Source: an uncultured Methanobrevibacter sp. | GTDB taxonomy: Archaea; Methanobacteriota; Methanobacteria; Methanobacteriales; Methanobacteriaceae | Reading direction: 5' to 3' | Length of the DNA: 64,000 nucleotides | Assembly: GCF_902771435.1 (NCBI RefSeq) | Contig: NZ_CACXXB010000005.1 | Coordinates: forward strand, 1 to 64,000 | Shown: positions 8,783 to 16,322 of the stretch, in pieces | Layout of the letters: every line of letters begins with the position of its first letter | Position numbering within the stretch: the first letter of the stretch is position 1 | Notes under the pieces: generated by a model | Databases searched by the model: none | What the model saw: the letters and a program-made list of their open reading frames with translations, nothing else | What the model was told of the DNA's origin: nothing | Made by a program: the position numbers and the translations under genes

Positions 8783-9292
8783 TTAATCAATGTAAACTAC
8801 AAATTCATCGAATTCTTTTCTTGGAGTTTCACGAGGTTCGGCATTGCCGTATCCTAATGGAGTGAACAGTACAGGTTCTTCGTTTTCATCCAAGTTCAGG
8901 AATTTATGAGCTTCATATTTTTTAAATGCTCCTATGTAACAGGTTCCAAGACCCACATCCTGTGCAGCTAAAATCATATGATCCATTACAATTGTTGCAT
9001 CAATGTCTGCTATATTTTTACCGTCCCAAGGTCTTGTCCATGCCTTATCCCTGAGTGCCACTACACACAATACGATAGGTGCCTCTACAAACCATCTTGC
9101 CCCATATATTTTAGACAACTCTTCCTTATGTTTTTTAGTGTCAATTACATAAACTTTGAATGGCTGGTAATTTACACCTGTCGGAGCCAATGTGGCAGCC
9201 TTTAAAACATAATCCAGCTTTTCCTTTTCAACTTCCTTATCCAAATATCCTCTTACACTATATCTTTCAGTTATAACATCAATGAATTCCAT
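8783..9292 (-). CDS. Nitroreductase family FMN oxidoreductase
   Basis: This is a flavoprotein of the nitroreductase superfamily, likely using FMN and NAD(P)H; the substrate is unknown. The start is typical (MEFIDVITERYSVRGYLDKE), with the FMN-phosphate binding Arg/Ser/Arg pattern, then LAPTGVNYQPFKVYVI and the C-terminal GYGNAEPRETPRK. It has about 169 residues. I chose the ATG at 9290-9292 because GGAGG lies 8 bases before it; the in-frame ATG directly before (9295) is equally possible, and one further upstream at 9310 has no such site. The gene overlaps the 3' end of the citrate synthase-like gene, so it is the next gene of that operon. Confidence 0.85.
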   Translation of the reverse strand: MEFIDVITERYSVRGYLDKEVEKEKLDYVLKAATLAPTGVNYQPFKVYVIDTKKHKEELSKIYGARWFVEAPIVLCVVALRDKAWTRPWDGKNIADIDATIVMDHMILAAQDVGLGTCYIGAFKKYEAHKFLNLDENEEPVLFTPLGYGNAEPRETPRKEFDEFVVYID

Positions 9293-10097
9293 CATATCTT
9301 CCTCCTTCATAGATTATGTCATCAAGGTCACAAAAACGTCTGAATTCCTCTTCCTCCATATTTTCCTCATGGATATGGGCAATAATTCCCGGAACCCTGC
9401 CTATTATGAATACGCCCAAACCCAAGTCTGGAGTGAATCCCAAATCAGACAAGATAGCTGCATTTGCACCATCCACATTTAACCGGATATCCTTTTTTTG
9501 ATAAATCAAGTCTTCAAGGGCCAATGCCAACTTGATATGGGGTCCGATAAAACCTTCCTTTATTACAAGCTCCATCAGCTTATCCGCCCTTGGGTCAACT
9601 TTATGGTATCTGTGTCCAAAGCCAGGAATTTTTTTATCGTTGATGAATTCGTTATAAATATCAATGGCCAGACTTGCAATCTGCTTATTGTCAAGGCCTG
9701 AATCTCCTGTACGGTATATTGAATTTATCCTAGACTGATATAACTGCATAGTCTTTTCGATTGCGCCTGCATGCTTATGGCCAAAAGACAATAACGCTCC
9801 AGCCACAGCGGAATTCATTGGGGAACCTGATGAAGCAACAAGCCTTGCAGTTTGAGTGCTTGGAGGAGTCACACCATGATCACAGAATGAAACAAGAACA
9901 TGATTGAATATTTTCCCCTCTTTGGGAGACGGCAATCTTCCTTTCATGAGCAAATAAACCATATCACTATAACGGATTTTTTCGATTAAATCCCTTTGGT
10001 TATAACCCATAGTTACTATTTTATCTTCCTCTACGCGGGAAATGGCTGTTTTTAAAGAATGAGGATTAACTCTAAAATTATTTTCTTGCATTTTCAT
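9279..10097 (-). CDS. Short citrate synthase / citryl-CoA lyase-like protein
   Basis: This is a citrate synthase superfamily protein of only 272 residues, against about 370-430 for ordinary citrate synthase. This length is typical of citryl-CoA lyase-like and other short forms. The catalytic triad can be placed: His109 in GHKHAGA, His162 in PGFGHRYHKVDPRA, and Asp209 in NVDGANAA. The active site therefore looks complete, and it could make or cleave a citrate-like CoA ester. It is the fourth of four enzyme genes in a row (PrpD-like, U32-like, fumarase-like, this one) after a duplicated DUF3100 membrane system, which suggests a role with a tricarboxylic acid. Whether it is synthetic or lytic cannot be told from sequence. 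Confidence 0.82.
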   Translation of the reverse strand: MKMQENNFRVNPHSLKTAISRVEEDKIVTMGYNQRDLIEKIRYSDMVYLLMKGRLPSPKEGKIFNHVLVSFCDHGVTPPSTQTARLVASSGSPMNSAVAGALLSFGHKHAGAIEKTMQLYQSRINSIYRTGDSGLDNKQIASLAIDIYNEFINDKKIPGFGHRYHKVDPRADKLMELVIKEGFIGPHIKLALALEDLIYQKKDIRLNVDGANAAILSDLGFTPDLGLGVFIIGRVPGIIAHIHEENMEEEEFRRFCDLDDIIYEGGRYDGIH

Positions 10098-10133
10098 GTA
10101 CCTTTTTAATTGTTAATTTCTAATATGTTCAAT

Positions 10134-11006
10134 TTATAATTTTAATGTTGCTACTCTTGGTTCAACAAAACATGATGGCCTTACCGCAACTATCCTGACA
10201 CCGCTTGCCCTTTGATTACCTACATTAACATAAGATCCCAGAACTGTAGTTTTTCCGCCGAAGCCTAACGGTCCGATTCCAGTATCATTCAATCTTGAAT
10301 TTACATATATTTCAGTGTCGCTTTGATTTGTCAAATTTCCGTATGCAACTGATTTTAAAAGTAACGCATTGGCTTCATAGTGTGTTCTTCCAATCCCTAT
10401 TGACGGAATGGATGGAGTGCATCCAAGCATATTAAGAGAATCGCTCAGCCAATCGATTGCGGTATCGATGACATTTTTAAAAGACCTCTTATGGTAAACC
10501 CTATATGTTTTTGCTCTGATTTCAGGACCTCCGCCTTCAAGGATGAAGTGGAGATTCAAAGTATCGGGAGATATTTCCCTTTTATATGTGGATTCGTCAT
10601 TTGCACAATCAATCAAAATGGAAGCCGGCTTGAGCATTCCCGGTTTTTCATATAGTCCAATGCTTTGTTCTATTCTCTGGATTTCATTGCCTTTGACTGC
10701 CATTGGCCTTGCCGGAAGATTATTCAAACCTAAAGCTATTCCTTCATGAATCTGATTCAATAAGTCTCCAGTAATTTCCCTTTCACAGCCCGCTTCAATG
10801 ATTACATGTGGAATTCCAGTATCATCACATAGGGGAAATCTGGTTTTCTCAGCAACCTTATAGTTTTCCAGGATTTGTGAGAGCGCCCAACGTGCATTCT
10901 CATTATCCTCAATTTCAATTGCATTTTCAAGTGCAACCAATTTATCATCAGTCAGTGTGGTTGATGCCTCTATAATACTTTTAGAAATCTCTTCTATAAT
11001 CTCCAT
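10134..11006 (-). CDS. Class I fumarase / tartrate dehydratase alpha-like protein
   Basis: This resembles the alpha subunit of oxygen-sensitive Fe-S fumarate and tartrate dehydratases. Three cysteines fit the 4Fe-4S ligands: Cys60 in RFPLCDDTGIP, Cys196 in LGCTPSIPSIGIG, and Cys279 in RPSCFVEPR. The 290-residue form begins at the ATG 4 bases after the upstream gene's stop, with GAGTGAT before it; a longer frame reaching 11078 overlaps that gene and is unlikely. No beta subunit is next to it, although two-subunit fumarases need one. The sequence around the second Cys is unusual (GIGRTHYEA rather than GIGGT), so the substrate is probably not fumarate. Confidence 0.8.
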   Translation of the reverse strand: MEIIEEISKSIIEASTTLTDDKLVALENAIEIEDNENARWALSQILENYKVAEKTRFPLCDDTGIPHVIIEAGCEREITGDLLNQIHEGIALGLNNLPARPMAVKGNEIQRIEQSIGLYEKPGMLKPASILIDCANDESTYKREISPDTLNLHFILEGGGPEIRAKTYRVYHKRSFKNVIDTAIDWLSDSLNMLGCTPSIPSIGIGRTHYEANALLLKSVAYGNLTNQSDTEIYVNSRLNDTGIGPLGFGGKTTVLGSYVNVGNQRASGVRIVAVRPSCFVEPRVATLKL

Positions 11007-11010
11007 AAAA

Positions 11011-11913
11011 TCACTCAGGAACTGATAAATCATTACTCTGATTTGGAGATGCAATAGCCTCCGGACAATAGCTTTCAATCATTCTTTTAACAAGAAGAAC
11101 CTGCTTTATACGAGCTTTTGCTTCTTTTTCAGTTGTATCCCAATTATGATTGGCCGCAACGGAACCTCCGGTTTTTAGATAAACCGGTGCTGCAACATCG
11201 ATGAATTTCGGCACTTCATAATGCCTGATGAATCCTCCAGTGGATTTTGGATTTTCGGTGTGCAAGTCAATTGCCATATCCACTGCATTTCTTATGGCTG
11301 CAATCATTGGAATTTGAAGGTCTCTGACCGGATTTAAAGAATTCAGACCATTTTCTTCAAGCAGTTTTGCAGCTGCAGGATTTGAATGGCCTGCATGAGC
11401 AGATAATTTAAAATGAGTATTTTTGGGAATTTCACCTTCAGCCCTCATCTTATTCAAGGTCCAAAGCAGTCCCTCATCATATAAAAGAATTCCTCTAACT
11501 CCGAGCTCGCATGCCTTTTTTACATCTTCAATGGCATAAACAAGATTATCATAACCCCTAAGCCTGTAGCCTATTCTGCTTCCTTCAGCCGTGTGTACAG
11601 TTGCTGAAGTATCATATGTCGCCCTTGGACCTACTGATAAAAACAGCTCACAGCCATAATCCTTGGCCAGATTAACCATCGACATTATTTCATCATCACT
11701 TAAAAGCATGATCCCCTTAGTTTGAGTAACCCTATGAATAAAAACATCATGCTTGCGGGATTCGATTAAAAGAGTTTTCATTGTATTCGGAGACTGGATT
11801 CCGGGAACCTCAAAACGATACTGTCCTCCATCATCAAATCTCTTGGAGGATTTGAAATCGCTGAAAGTCTCTTCAATTCCAATCTTTTTTAAAAATTCCT
11901 TTGTTCTATCCAT
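11011..11913 (-). CDS. Peptidase U32-like TIM barrel protein
   Basis: This 300-residue protein looks like a TIM barrel of the U32-like type. GVRGILLYDEGLLW, KLSAHAGHSNPAAAKLL and GLNSLNPVRDLQIPMIAAIR resemble strand-loop elements of that superfamily. The assignment is by overall pattern and is tentative. U32 relatives include prenylated-ring hydroxylases and collagenase-like proteins, so proteolysis should not be assumed. It lies 5 bases before the fumarase-like gene and 5 bases after the PrpD-like gene, which places it firmly in the same operon. A role in converting the same small molecule is an inference from that position. Confidence 0.6.
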   Translation of the reverse strand: MDRTKEFLKKIGIEETFSDFKSSKRFDDGGQYRFEVPGIQSPNTMKTLLIESRKHDVFIHRVTQTKGIMLLSDDEIMSMVNLAKDYGCELFLSVGPRATYDTSATVHTAEGSRIGYRLRGYDNLVYAIEDVKKACELGVRGILLYDEGLLWTLNKMRAEGEIPKNTHFKLSAHAGHSNPAAAKLLEENGLNSLNPVRDLQIPMIAAIRNAVDMAIDLHTENPKSTGGFIRHYEVPKFIDVAAPVYLKTGGSVAANHNWDTTEKEAKARIKQVLLVKRMIESYCPEAIASPNQSNDLSVPE

Positions 11914-11918
11914 AATAT

Positions 11919-13325
11919 CTACTCATTTAATTTTTGAACTACATATTTCATAGAATACTCTTCAATAGAATCGATTACCGTAAGATTTCTTATATCATAA
12001 AGGGGATTGTTTGATTTGAATTTATCGATTAATTCACTTAATTTAAACGGATTTTCAAAATCACCCCGTGGAAGCATGGTGATATTCTGGAATACGCCGT
12101 TTCTGAAGGTCTTGTCCAATTTGATAATTACATTTGACGGCCTTTTGTCAGGGTAAAGTTCATTTAACTTGTCATCAGAAAGGATTATCATCCTATTTGC
12201 AAGATTTTTGATGCTGTTTACCTTATCAACAGTTGAATAGTTATCCAAAAGACCATATTCAATCAGCTGATTGATGTCATCGACAGTGACCTCACCAACC
12301 ACAAGGGAAATCGCAACGGCATACGGCAGTGACTGCCTTAACTCCTCAATGTTTTTAGGATTGAAGTTATTATGTTCGGCAGCAACATCATATGTCTTGA
12401 CGGCAATGTTCTCAATATGGTCATATTCATCACCTATGCTCGCCTTCAGCTTCAGGGCAGTGTCTATAGATGAGTGAATATGTCTGCAAAACGGATACTT
12501 TTTAAAGTAGATGTCCCTAACTCTCACTTTTCCAATCTCCTTCAAGACATTTTCAAATGAGAAATCTTCAACATCATAATCATCACCATAGACCATGGTT
12601 TTCAAAAATCCTTCCTTTCCTTCAAAGATTGTTCCGCTGCCTGTAAATCCGTTCCTTGCAAGAAATGCTGACAGCATACCATTATAGATAGCTTTTCCCA
12701 CATGCAGGGATTTGCCCATAGTTCCGCCATGGTCAGATTCCAGAAGTCCTGCAGATTGAGTTCCGCATAAACCAAGTGCATTTAAGATTTGTTCCTCATC
12801 AAGTTTTAATAATTTTGAAGCTACAGTTCCTGCAACAAAGGCTCCTATTGTCCCAGTTGTATGAAATCCCTTGTTTCTGTGTTCAGGATTGACAATTTTT
12901 CCAAGAAGAATCCCCACTTCATAACCTACAATAACTCCTTCCAAAAATTCCTTTCCGCTTAAGTCGAAACTTTCAGAAATTGCCAGTGCAGTCGGGAAAA
13001 TAACTGATCCCAAATGGATTTGAGCCCCCCTATGACCATCATCCAACTCCAAAACATGCGCTGAAACACCATTCAAAAAAGCGGCACTCAGCATATTGGT
13101 TTTTAGATTTCTTCCTATAACTGAAGCTTTTAAATTTAGATTAAAGTTTCCTGAAAATATTTCTTCAACTGTATTAAAAGCTATTTTTGAAGCCTCTTCA
13201 TCTGCTCCCCGGTAGGTTACTCCAAAAAAATCTAAAAAAGCAGCTTTTACAGTGGTGATGGATTCCACAGTTGCTTGTTCATAACGATAGTTTGAAATAA
13301 ATTTAGAAATATTTTTTAAAAACAT
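11919..13325 (-). CDS. MmgE/PrpD family dehydratase-like protein
   Basis: This belongs to the MmgE/PrpD family, whose known members include 2-methylcitrate dehydratase and cis-aconitate decarboxylase. The 468 residues have the usual two-part layout: an all-helical N-terminal half with LNGVSAHVLELDDGH and NKGFHTTGTIGAFVAGTVAS, then a C-terminal half with KYPFCRHIHSSIDTAL and a Tyr-Asp-rich strand. It is the first enzyme gene after the DUF3100 pairs. Together with the citrate synthase-like gene it recalls a methylcitrate-type pathway, but no PrpB or aconitase is present nearby. The substrate is therefore open. Confidence 0.88.
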   Translation of the reverse strand: MFLKNISKFISNYRYEQATVESITTVKAAFLDFFGVTYRGADEEASKIAFNTVEEIFSGNFNLNLKASVIGRNLKTNMLSAAFLNGVSAHVLELDDGHRGAQIHLGSVIFPTALAISESFDLSGKEFLEGVIVGYEVGILLGKIVNPEHRNKGFHTTGTIGAFVAGTVASKLLKLDEEQILNALGLCGTQSAGLLESDHGGTMGKSLHVGKAIYNGMLSAFLARNGFTGSGTIFEGKEGFLKTMVYGDDYDVEDFSFENVLKEIGKVRVRDIYFKKYPFCRHIHSSIDTALKLKASIGDEYDHIENIAVKTYDVAAEHNNFNPKNIEELRQSLPYAVAISLVVGEVTVDDINQLIEYGLLDNYSTVDKVNSIKNLANRMIILSDDKLNELYPDKRPSNVIIKLDKTFRNGVFQNITMLPRGDFENPFKLSELIDKFKSNNPLYDIRNLTVIDSIEEYSMKYVVQKLNE

Positions 13326-13394
13326 AAAACACCTAACTATAATATATGTAAAAATAGTGTTAAATAGTTAACTTATGAATTTTAAAAAAAGAAT

Positions 13395-13886
13395 TTATGC
13401 AGCCGGAACACCGGTTAAAACAAGAACAATATGTGCTACAATAGCCGCACCATAATAAGTTGCTGCAATTACCAAAACTGTTATTACAACTGCTCTCCAA
13501 CCTAATGCCTTAAATTCATCCCAGCTTTTACCCATACCAATACCAACATAAGCTAAAAATACTGTCACAATAGCCAGAAGTTCAACTTTAGAAACATAAT
13601 ACAGAACAAATTCAGATGTCGGCATGCCCGGAAACGCTATTAAAATACCGATTACGCTGATATATAAAATTGATGAAATGTTGAACGGAAGTTCCCTTTC
13701 AAGCCATACCCCGATAAGCGTTACAAATGACAGTATGGCCATACCAACCAATGAATCTGCCATAGGATGCTTATAACCCAAATAATTGGCAATCACGGTA
13801 ATGACTGAAAATATGATCAACAATAGAATCCAATTGAAGATACCATGAACGGATACATTTTCAGAACCGTCTATTAAATCAGGCAT
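13395..13886 (-). CDS. Small membrane partner of DUF3100 protein (copy A)
   Basis: This is a 163-residue membrane protein with about four to five hydrophobic segments and a short soluble N-terminus (MPDLIDGSENVSVHGIFNWI). It overlaps the DUF3100 gene upstream by one base. It is a close paralogue of the protein at 14922-15407, sharing SVHGIFNWILLL, SLVGMA, GVWLERELPFNISS (copy B: GVWMERELPFNISS) and FLAYVGIGMGKSW. The constant pairing with DUF3100 suggests the two form one membrane complex, probably a transporter. This is inference. Confidence 0.75.
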   Translation of the reverse strand: MPDLIDGSENVSVHGIFNWILLLIIFSVITVIANYLGYKHPMADSLVGMAILSFVTLIGVWLERELPFNISSILYISVIGILIAFPGMPTSEFVLYYVSKVELLAIVTVFLAYVGIGMGKSWDEFKALGWRAVVITVLVIAATYYGAAIVAHIVLVLTGVPAA

Positions 13887-14785
13887 TATTCATCCTCCTT
13901 TTCTGGCACTAATGCTTCCCTTCCAATTTTAGGTTCAAGCCAGTTGTATATTTTTTCTGTCAATGGGAGTGCAATAAATATAACTATGTAAATACCTACA
14001 CAGAATGAAAGCAAATTACTGAATCCTGCGAATGCCTCGATTTGTGTTTCCATTCCAGGAAATGCCGCCAAGGTTGGTCCAATAGCTGCAGCATTCATAC
14101 TGGCACTGCCCACACCACTGGCCATAGCATATGCATATGGATGTAGCGGTATGAAAGACAAAGAGAATGTAACAAGGAAGCTGATAAATATTGTACCGAT
14201 TACAGTTCCGATGATGAAAATCGCAAATACTCCACGGGATTCTGGAGAATTGAAACCGTATTTGTCGACAACAACTGCAACGTTCGGTTCCCTTCCAATG
14301 GAATTTGTCATACCGATGGATTCCTTTTTAAATCCTAAAAGCAATGCAATCGGAAGCACTAAAATTGTTGCCAAATGCCCCAATTCCTGTAAAATCAAAG
14401 CAGGACCCATTTCAAAAATCAAGCTTATTGACTGGCCACTTGAAACAGCCAGCTTTGCAATCAAAACACCGATGAAAAGCATCATTGCCCCTTCAGCGAT
14501 ACGTGCCTGCTTTCTGTGAATCCATTTAATCGGTTTTACCAGATAAAAGGCAAGACCAAGAATAATAGTGTAAATCAAAGGCATAATTGTGATAGCTACA
14601 TCTTTAGTAATTGGAATCCTAATTGTACCTATCAGCTCAGCAATTATTACTAAAACAAGTACTGTACCGTGTAACCTTAAATCTCTCCAAGGATTTTTCT
14701 TTAAAATACGTTTATCAGTTTTTTCACGATAAATATGCTCTATCTGACCATCCTTATCCGGAATAAAAATCCACTCCCCAGGCAA
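13886..14785 (-). CDS. DUF3100 membrane protein (copy A)
   Basis: This is a polytopic membrane protein of 299 residues in the DUF3100 family, with about eight hydrophobic segments after a charged N-terminus (HIYREKTDKRILKKNPWRDL). Conserved stretches include EMGPALILQELGHLATI, GMTNSIGREPNVAVVVDKYG and ASGVGSASMNAAA, which look like substrate or ion-binding re-entrant loops. No substrate is established for the family as far as I know. The start is TTG (14783-14785) with no Shine-Dalgarno, but a TATA-like TTAATATTATA about 25 bases upstream fits a leaderless transcript. It is paired with the small partner at 13395. Confidence 0.78.
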   Translation of the reverse strand: MPGEWIFIPDKDGQIEHIYREKTDKRILKKNPWRDLRLHGTVLVLVIIAELIGTIRIPITKDVAITIMPLIYTIILGLAFYLVKPIKWIHRKQARIAEGAMMLFIGVLIAKLAVSSGQSISLIFEMGPALILQELGHLATILVLPIALLLGFKKESIGMTNSIGREPNVAVVVDKYGFNSPESRGVFAIFIIGTVIGTIFISFLVTFSLSFIPLHPYAYAMASGVGSASMNAAAIGPTLAAFPGMETQIEAFAGFSNLLSFCVGIYIVIFIALPLTEKIYNWLEPKIGREALVPEKEDE

Positions 14786-14921
14786 TATGAATTTACATTT
14801 GTATAATATTAATTACTTAAAACATAATATTTAAATTAATATCATTCAAATTTAAAAATAACACTAAATGTGAAAAAAATAGAAAAAATATAGTAATACT
14901 ATTTCACAAAATAAGAAAAAG

Positions 14922-15407
14922 TTAAACTGGAACACCAGTCATTACCAAAATAATATGAGCAACAACAGCTGATCCCAGATATGTTGATGCAATAACTAAA
15001 ACGGTTACGATTATCGCACGCCATCCAAGGGCTTTAAACTCATTCCAACTTTTACCCATACCTATACCGACGTAAGCTAAAAATACGGTTACAATAGATA
15101 AAAGTTCAACTTGAGAAACATAATGCAGCAGCACACTGGATGTGGGCATGCTCGGAAAAGCCAAAACTATGCCTATTACACTAATGTAAATAATGGAGGA
15201 AATGTTAAAGGGAAGTTCCCTCTCCATCCAAACCCCGCACAATGTAATGAGGGACAACATCGCCATGCCCACAAGAGAATCACCAATAGGATGTTTATAG
15301 CCTATGTAGTTACCAACAACTGTGATAATCGAAAATATGGCCAAAAGCAAAATCCAGTTAAAGATTCCATGAACTGAAACGTTTTCCGCTCCATCGATAA
15401 AATCCAT
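14922..15407 (-). CDS. Small membrane partner of DUF3100 protein (copy B)
   Basis: This 161-residue membrane protein is a paralogue of the one at 13395-13886, with the same N-terminal motif (SVHGIFNWILLL) and the same four to five helices. It starts immediately after the stop of the DUF3100 copy B gene, so the pair is translationally coupled. A 136-base AT-rich gap separates this pair from copy A, and copy A may also have its own promoter there. The strong similarity and shared gene order show that the two pairs arose by tandem duplication. Confidence 0.75.
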   Translation of the reverse strand: MDFIDGAENVSVHGIFNWILLLAIFSIITVVGNYIGYKHPIGDSLVGMAMLSLITLCGVWMERELPFNISSIIYISVIGIVLAFPSMPTSSVLLHYVSQVELLSIVTVFLAYVGIGMGKSWNEFKALGWRAIIVTVLVIASTYLGSAVVAHIILVMTGVPV

Positions 15408-16322
15408 CTATTTACCTCCTTGCTCATTGATGGCATCTTTTTTACCAATTTTTGGCTCTAAAAATCCATATAATTTTTCGGTTAGCGGTAAAGCAATGAA
15501 AATTACAATGTAAATTCCTATAGAAAATGAAAGCAGATTACTGAATCCTGCAAATGCTTCAATGCTTGTTTCCAAACTAGGAAATGCCGCAAGAGTAGGT
15601 CCTAAAGATGCCGCATTCATACTGGCACTGCCCACACCACTGGCCATAGCAAAAGCATACGGATGCAGAGGAAGAACAGAAACACAGATGCTTGTCAAAA
15701 AGCTAATGAATACAGTTCCTATTATTGTTCCGACAATAAACAGGGCAAAAATTCCTCTTGATTCCGGAGAATTGAACCCGTATTTATCAACAACAACGGC
15801 AACTTCAGGTTCACGACCAATAGAATTTGTCATGCCGATTGTCTCTCTTTTAAATCCTAAAAGCAATGCAACAGGAAGTGCTATAAATATGGTGGCAAGG
15901 TGACCCAATTCCTGTAAGATCAAAGCAGGACCCATTTCAAAAATCAAATGTATTGATTGTCCACTGGAAACAGCCAGTTTAGCAATCAAAACTCCAATAA
16001 AAAGCATCATTGCTCCTTCAGCAACTCTAGATTGTTTTCTTTGAATCCATTTAATTGGTTTTGCAAGATAAAAAATTAGCCCTAAAACCATAGTATACAA
16101 CAACGGCATTATTGAAACTGAAACACCTTTTGTCAGATTTATTTCAATAGGTCCGATTAATTCCGCAATAATTACCAAAAGAAGTACAGACAAATGTAAA
16201 CCATAATCCTTCCAGGGATTTTTCTTTAAAATACGCTTATCGGTCTTATTACGATATATATGTTGAATCTCATTCGTCTCATTATCATTATTTGAAATAA
16301 TACCCTCTCCCGCCCAACACAA
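15408..16322 (-). CDS. DUF3100 membrane protein (copy B)
   Basis: This 304-residue membrane protein is a paralogue of copy A at 13886. Shared signatures are HIYRNKTDKRILKKNPWKDY, EMGPALILQELGHLATI, GMTNSIGREPEVAVVVDKYG and ASGVGSASMNAAS. The only in-frame early start is TTG at 16320-16322; no ATG or GTG occurs before about residue 80. Copy A also begins with TTG, so the use of a weak start may be a feature of this gene pair. It is the first gene of the locus, with a promoter and an inverted repeat just upstream (16340-16400). Confidence 0.76.
   Translation of the reverse strand: MCWAGEGIISNNDNETNEIQHIYRNKTDKRILKKNPWKDYGLHLSVLLLVIIAELIGPIEINLTKGVSVSIMPLLYTMVLGLIFYLAKPIKWIQRKQSRVAEGAMMLFIGVLIAKLAVSSGQSIHLIFEMGPALILQELGHLATIFIALPVALLLGFKRETIGMTNSIGREPEVAVVVDKYGFNSPESRGIFALFIVGTIIGTVFISFLTSICVSVLPLHPYAFAMASGVGSASMNAASLGPTLAAFPSLETSIEAFAGFSNLLSFSIGIYIVIFIALPLTEKLYGFLEPKIGKKDAINEQGGK

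Follow-up and report, generated by a model that had tools for sequence, protein, structure and literature searches.

A conserved set of four enzyme genes in Methanobacteriota, possibly part of an alkylcitrate-type pathway, beside a separable DUF3100 membrane module

In the methylcitrate cycle (PrpC, PrpD, AcnD/AcnB and PrpB), a citrate-synthase-type enzyme, an MmgE/PrpD-family protein, an iron-sulphur (Fe-S) hydratase and a TIM barrel carry out four types of step. Judging by protein families and conserved residues, the same four step types may be represented by adjacent genes in a stretch of DNA from an uncultured Methanobrevibacter sp. (contig NZ_CACXXB010000005.1, positions 1 to 64,000; this whole stretch of 64,000 nucleotides is referred to here as the window). 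The citrate-synthase-type protein of the window resembles citryl-coenzyme A (CoA) lyase (Ccl, 6hxp) in its short length, conserved triad and subfamily score, and may likewise catalyse cleavage. Class I fumarases, L-tartrate dehydratases and mesaconases are two-subunit hydratases with PF05681 and PF05683 subunits and three cysteines, features shared by the hydratase described here, and the TIM barrel has its nearest Protein Data Bank (PDB) fold, with a weak sequence match, in the peptidase U32 family (PF01136; Mk0906, 5d88). The neighbouring DUF3100 membrane genes recall the LysO and LrgA-LrgB exporters in that a small multi-helix protein accompanies a larger membrane partner, sometimes fused to it, and they give weak LysO and LrgA scores.

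An initial annotation of the window had proposed that these membrane and enzyme genes form one system. We report that the locus is made up of two separable modules, namely the DUF3100 pairs (module 1) and four enzyme genes (module 2, hereafter the core) encoding an MmgE/PrpD-family protein (PrpD), a U32-like TIM-barrel protein (U32), the alpha subunit of a divergent fumarase-type hydratase (fumarase alpha) and a short citrate-synthase-type enzyme (the lyase). These four enzyme genes make up a set that is conserved in archaea and that recurs in Clostridia with another kind of lyase. The set is apparently undescribed; literature searches on the gene combination and on likely Methanothermobacter locus tags found no description of it, in agreement with the initial annotation, which had known of no such pathway. 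We propose, with a probability of roughly 0.55, that module 2 together with a beta subunit encoded elsewhere in the genome constitutes a five-protein alkylcitrate (methylcitrate-type) pathway for a branched polycarboxylic acid.

The enzyme set in archaea and Clostridia

Core gene order was compared by tblastn of the window proteins against archaeal loci. The genes for PrpD, U32, fumarase alpha and the lyase were found in identical order and on the same strand in every one of the 63 named archaeal loci with the complete set, a conservation that far exceeds chance. In a wider panel drawn from every sampled family of the phylum, the order was kept in 21 of 22 cases, the exception being a locus in which the PrpD reading frame is split in two. 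Most archaeal loci have tiaS on one side of the block and the A-type ATPase operon on the other. Two loci (L036:10978-12665 and L038:6806-8231) carry additional open reading frames (ORFs) of 418 and 452 amino acids (aa) between the genes for fumarase alpha and the lyase.

Of 132 Methanobacteriota genomes, 115 have the U32 gene, and the 17 without it all belong to one genus, which we take to be Methanosphaera. The sample includes two thermophiles, presumably Methanothermobacter thermautotrophicus deltaH and Methanothermus fervidus. One genome (G005) retains U32, alpha and beta, though on separate contigs; another (G010, contig C114:5440-5891) has a decayed partial second U32 copy alongside the intact gene. 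A tree built from 52 U32 proteins places the archaea on one side of a branch with support of 93/74, and therefore ancestral presence in the phylum followed by a single loss is the simplest history, with U32 as an old, vertically inherited gene. The alternative that archaea acquired the gene recently from Clostridia was considered and found unsupported, as archaeal and bacterial proteins separate in this tree.

In a sample of 399 genomes centred on the phylum of Clostridia, 34 (about 8%) have a U32 relative, and these relatives fall into three clades. The proteins of clade A share 63 to 65% identity with the archaeal protein and are encoded with PrpD, adjacent fumarase beta and alpha subunits and a carbon-carbon lyase, which is either of the PF15617 type, in polysaccharide loci, or the citrate-lyase set citC, citE, citF and citX, of which citF and citC score over their cut-offs. 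In two Clostridial loci (L144 and L145) two U32 genes flank PrpD and are accompanied by citC-citE-citF-citX. The PF15617 loci mostly also encode an aldo-keto reductase and a phosphonopyruvate-decarboxylase-like protein, and an ATP-grasp ligase is present in all three Clostridial polysaccharide loci that show the complete set, which suits an acid that would later be joined to an amine. The initial annotation had named co-occurrence in other genomes as the test of its proposal; the enzymes do co-occur, while the membrane part does not follow them.

The lack of a fumarase beta subunit, as noted in the initial annotation, holds within the operon but not for the genome, in which a divergent beta (PF05683) is encoded on contig C15 (G000:C15:35025-35495). 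In each of the 14 U32-positive archaeal genomes checked there are two fumarase alphas, a canonical one that scores about 330 to 350 bits and a divergent one with about 157 to 195 bits; beta likewise comes in a canonical and a divergent type. In the U32-negative genus only the canonical alpha/beta pair was found (4 of 4 genomes), with the divergent alpha and beta both absent. The divergent betas are 44 to 52% identical (46% for the window genome) to the Clostridial beta that adjoins the divergent alpha. Since the divergent beta resembles that Clostridial subunit and co-occurs with the divergent alpha, the gene on contig C15 very probably encodes the window alpha's own partner. The window alpha was rejected as the sole fumarase of the cell, the canonical pair being present in every archaeal genome checked. 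In one genome, probably that of M. thermautotrophicus (G149, L290:9510-13452), the matches to beta and to phosphoenolpyruvate (PEP) synthase are fragmented, which may be due to frameshifts in the sequence.

Enzyme families, proposed reactions and alternatives

The operon proteins were assigned to families by Pfam and NCBIfam profile searches. The lyase has a citrate synthase C-terminal domain and is best described by the citryl-CoA lyase subfamily model NF004866 (408.8 bits, cut-off 245); it is the single match of its citryl-CoA-lyase-related model genome-wide, and its closest solved structure is citryl-CoA lyase 6hxp (E 1.4e-48). With 95.3 bits against the cit_synth_II cut-off of 421.3, it does not score as a full-length 2-methylcitrate synthase. 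The complete citrate-synthase triad that had been noted for it (H109, H162 and D209) is invariant in all 23 alignment rows. Similarly, PrpD reaches 38.9 to 44.6 bits with prpD equivalog models whose cut-offs are 458 to 950, and so falls outside 2-methylcitrate dehydratases, while its MmgE/PrpD residues D95, D96, H104, H155, K205, K275 and H284 are invariant (33/33 rows).

Fumarase alpha matches PF05681 with 167 bits, falls short of TIGR00722 (98.5 bits, cut-off 100.65) and PRK06246 (111.1 bits, cut-off 276), and has fumarate hydratase 7xky as its closest solved structure. Its three cysteines, remarked upon in the initial annotation, are C84, C220 and C303 (numbering of the ORF as listed) and are invariant in 38 of 38 rows. 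The gene probably starts at the ATG at 11006, 4 nucleotides past the U32 stop, and not at the TTG at 11078 within U32. The U32 protein scores 20.5 bits with Pfam U32, under the gathering cut-off of 22.4, and a PDB sequence-profile search with it returned chance matches only. Its AlphaFold2 model (predicted local distance difference test, pLDDT, 87.8) has as top PDB matches the U32 peptidase Mk0906 (5d88) and class II aldolases, with modest template modelling (TM) scores near 0.5. The residues kept across all clades are chiefly acidic and basic and include E35, D101, R117, R119, D146, E147, K169, N194, D198, D216, R230 and K247.

The enzyme families point to the hydroxylated di- or tricarboxylate chemistry that had been suggested for the locus. 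In the proposed pathway, the citrate-synthase-type enzyme would form or cleave the bond that joins an acyl-CoA to a 2-oxo acid. Dehydration and hydration around this bond would fall to PrpD and the fumarase-like Fe-S pair, and an aldolase-type cleavage or condensation by the U32-like barrel would stand in for PrpB. The branched polycarboxylic acid would be the product or the substrate of the pathway. Because the core is kept universally in autotrophs living on H2 and CO2, its role in these organisms is probably biosynthetic and general.

Several points weigh against this proposal. The evidence consists of gene set, order, co-occurrence, the beta partner, predicted fold and conserved residues, from which we infer the reactions, their direction and the substrate. 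The archaeal absences all lie within one genus, and the co-loss therefore counts as a single event. The archaeal operon lacks the CoA ligase or transferase that a citryl-CoA lyase would require for free citrate. The solved neighbours of PrpD are iminodisuccinate epimerase (IDS-epimerase), IRG1 and cis-aconitate decarboxylase, with 2-methylcitrate dehydratase more distant. The U32 protein has no characterised close relative, and no histidine in it, nor any histidine metal site, is invariant across clades. In clade B, a bacterial group, U32 is encoded beside a canonical fumarase, malic enzyme and a malate/lactate-type dehydrogenase, without PrpD or lyase; given this context, U32 chemistry may be more general than the core pathway.

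Some further U32 contexts were recorded. In three Clostridial loci (L136, L142 and L177) a phosphonopyruvate-decarboxylase-like gene adjoins U32 (404 bits in L136, cut-off 312.5), and PEP mutase was not found in the L136 genome. The idea that U32 replaces PEP mutase was dropped, as PEP mutase is patchy among these genomes and PrpD and fumarase would be left unexplained. In the window genome itself, contig C1:22539-23387 (L211) has a PEP mutase match over the cut-off in an open frame of 438 aa, which suggests phosphonate synthesis; the gene is missing in most relatives checked, but one genome of the Methanosphaera-like genus has it. A distant U32-like gene on an Enterobacter chuandaensis plasmid (L320:6901-13613) lies in an operon with an APH kinase, a 2-hydroxyacid dehydrogenase, an aminotransferase and a haem-oxygenase-like gene, an arrangement that resembles a small natural-product cluster.

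A more specific but less likely possibility, which we put forward only tentatively, is that the core builds the branched tetracarboxylic acid (1,3,4,6-hexanetetracarboxylic acid or a hydroxy form) that caps methanofurans a and c in Methanobacteriales. On this route the citrate-synthase-type enzyme would join an acyl-CoA to 2-oxoglutarate in a Claisen-type condensation and PrpD would dehydrate the product; more (de)hydration, carried out by the fumarase-like pair, and lastly a reduction would follow. The cap is a succinate with two carboxyethyl arms, such as alkylcitrate chemistry would be expected to yield; the cap structures and their distribution are reportedly those described by White and colleagues. 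The methanofurans of M. jannaschii and M. acetivorans are not known to carry the tetracarboxylic cap, and the lyase model has no match at all in the former and none over the cut-off in the latter. Of the initial 14 genomes, 8 have the beta gene immediately after mfnA (572 bits on the MfnA model TIGR03812, cut-off 299), as do three later ones, with a stop/start overlap in two lineages. In its favour we also count that methanofurans a and c are distinguished from the others by their terminal residue (PMC8141765) and that, as of 2011, some seven genes of methanofuran synthesis in Methanothermobacter had yet to be assigned (PMC3087415). Against it, the mfnA neighbourhood also holds ribosomal L10e and PEP synthase, and this old gene string (L10e - PEP synthase - mfnA - beta) is no longer intact in the window's genus, where beta keeps its other neighbours. 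No reductase or ligase was identified for the route, and Clostridia carry U32, PrpD, alpha and beta though they have no methanofuran. Moreover, Methanosphaera is without the core yet keeps mfnA, mfnB and fwdB, and in view of these three genes the idea that the genus lost the core together with methanofuran was rejected. The joint proposition that the five proteins build the methanofuran cap and that Clostridia use the same chemistry for an unusual polycarboxylic acyl group of surface polysaccharides appears unlikely to us.

A catabolic or anaplerotic shunt, in which a citrate- or methylcitrate-like acid is split to acetyl-CoA and a 2-oxo acid (or which serves to remove propionyl-CoA) to feed oxaloacetate, pyruvate or succinate, would be in line with the citrate-lyase operon of L144 and L145, which encodes a cleaving enzyme, and with the fumarase and malic enzyme adjoining U32 in clade B. 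We nevertheless judge it quite improbable, as the core is kept in the autotrophic thermophiles Methanothermus and Methanothermobacter, which live on H2 and CO2, and the archaeal operon has no aconitase, CoA transferase or CitCDEFX.

Under the alkylcitrate proposal, the U32-like barrel and the second fumarase-type hydratase, which annotation pipelines label as peptidase or fumarase, would be given a role, and the origin of the methanofuran cap becomes directly testable. Almost all sampled members of a major methanogen lineage, autotrophic thermophiles among them, have retained the five-gene set, and gut and rumen Clostridia share it, which points to a general metabolic step without known function. 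The short citrate synthase and fumarase alpha described here should not be counted as tricarboxylic acid cycle genes in models of methanogen metabolism.

Gene layout and the DUF3100 membrane module

All eight ORFs of the initial annotation were found, co-directional as it had stated, and they are listed in Table 1 with one further gene. The short gaps it described apply to the enzyme genes, which are spaced by 4 to 36 bp; elsewhere the gaps are wider, with 69 bp ahead of PrpD, 136 bp separating the two DUF3100 pairs and 194 bp upstream of the first DUF3100 gene, the last containing the TATA-like TTTATATA. The operon extends further at the lyase end, where a nitroreductase-like gene overlaps the lyase gene; the two genes occur together in 59 named archaeal loci. 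The nitroreductase-like gene was not found in the neighbourhood of the core in Methanothermus or Methanothermobacter. Rfam, tRNA, PADLOC and phage searches gave no match.

Table 1. Genes of the locus, with positions in the window
Feature	Coordinates	Strand	Remarks
Nitroreductase-like protein	8783..9310	(-)	PF00881; overlaps lyase gene end; usual downstream neighbour, outside core
Short citrate-synthase-type enzyme, citryl-CoA-lyase-like, 272 aa	9279..10097	(-)	NF004866; core gene 4
Divergent class I fumarase-type hydratase, alpha subunit	10134..11006	(-)	PF05681; core gene 3
U32-like TIM-barrel protein, 300 aa	11011..11913	(-)	core gene 2, best conserved of the four
MmgE/PrpD-family protein, 468 aa	11919..13325	(-)	PF03972 231.6 bits, PF19305 91.6 bits; core gene 1
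Small membrane partner of DUF3100, copy b, 163 aa	13395..13886	(-)	5 hydrophobic segments; separate module
DUF3100 membrane protein, copy b, 299 aa	13886..14785	(-)	PF11299 284.9 bits; separate module
Small membrane partner of DUF3100, copy a, 161 aa	14922..15407	(-)	LysO 20.5 bits, below cut-off 23.8; separate module
DUF3100 membrane protein, copy a, 304 aa, start codon uncertain	15408..16322	(-)	PF11299 289.2 bits; separate module

Both DUF3100 proteins score over the PF11299 cut-off of 27 bits, and the two small membrane proteins match no Pfam or NCBIfam family above cut-off. Archaeal loci contain 0, 1, 2 or 3 DUF3100 copies, or a fused copy, and none was present in 10 of 17 diverse Methanobacteriota loci. 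Methanothermobacter thermautotrophicus, for one, has no DUF3100 gene at this position, and its beta gene is near mfnA. The window genome itself has a third copy on contig C23 (L034:8318-9754), a natural fusion of 478 aa with the small partner; an AlphaFold model of the fused protein had a pLDDT of 73 and gave meaningless fold matches. The DUF3100 and small protein pair stands alone in Nitratireductor, Fusobacterium, Agrobacterium plasmids and the haloarchaeon Haladaptatus, and is one longer protein in Klebsiella. The small partner of copy b is 33 to 35% identical to the DUF3100-adjoining protein of Nitratireductor, Fusobacterium and Agrobacterium. M20 peptidases or aminoacylases lie near DUF3100 in four of these five outside loci, and amino-acid genes also adjoin it in other organisms. 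A literature search on DUF3100 found no description. Because it is missing from the diverse loci counted above and occurs elsewhere beside M20 aminoacylases, we treat the pair as a separate, putative two-component (elsewhere fused) membrane transporter that merely adjoins the pathway, probably for amino-acid-type compounds.

The original suggestion that the DUF3100 pairs transport the substrate or product of the pathway as part of one system has in its favour that the modules are adjacent on the same strand and that one or two DUF3100 copies adjoin PrpD in 43 of 50 named loci, nearly all of them Methanobrevibacter, but these absences and M20 contexts, the fused copy lying away from the enzymes, and the module's own TATA-like element and wider gaps make it very improbable.

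Comparison with known systems

The core departs from each of the systems that it resembles. Compared with the methylcitrate cycle, its synthase is of citryl-CoA-lyase size, its PrpD scores far under the prpD cut-offs, its hydratase is of the fumarase and not the aconitase type, and its barrel is U32-like and not PrpB; neither PrpB (isocitrate-lyase superfamily) nor aconitase was found among the operon proteins, the rest of the genome not having been searched. Unlike citryl-CoA lyase, the core lyase has no CcsAB-type citryl-CoA synthetase in its operon and sits with PrpD, U32 and fumarase alpha. In contrast to class I fumarase-type hydratases, the core alpha and beta are both divergent and exist alongside a canonical pair, with their genes apart in archaea and together in Clostridia. 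Core U32 differs from the U32 peptidases in scoring under the Pfam cut-off, in lacking the conserved cysteines for an Fe-S cluster and in having invariant residues of its own. Finally, the DUF3100 module differs from the LysO and LrgA-LrgB exporters in that its scores lie below cut-off and its AlphaFold model has no meaningful fold match.

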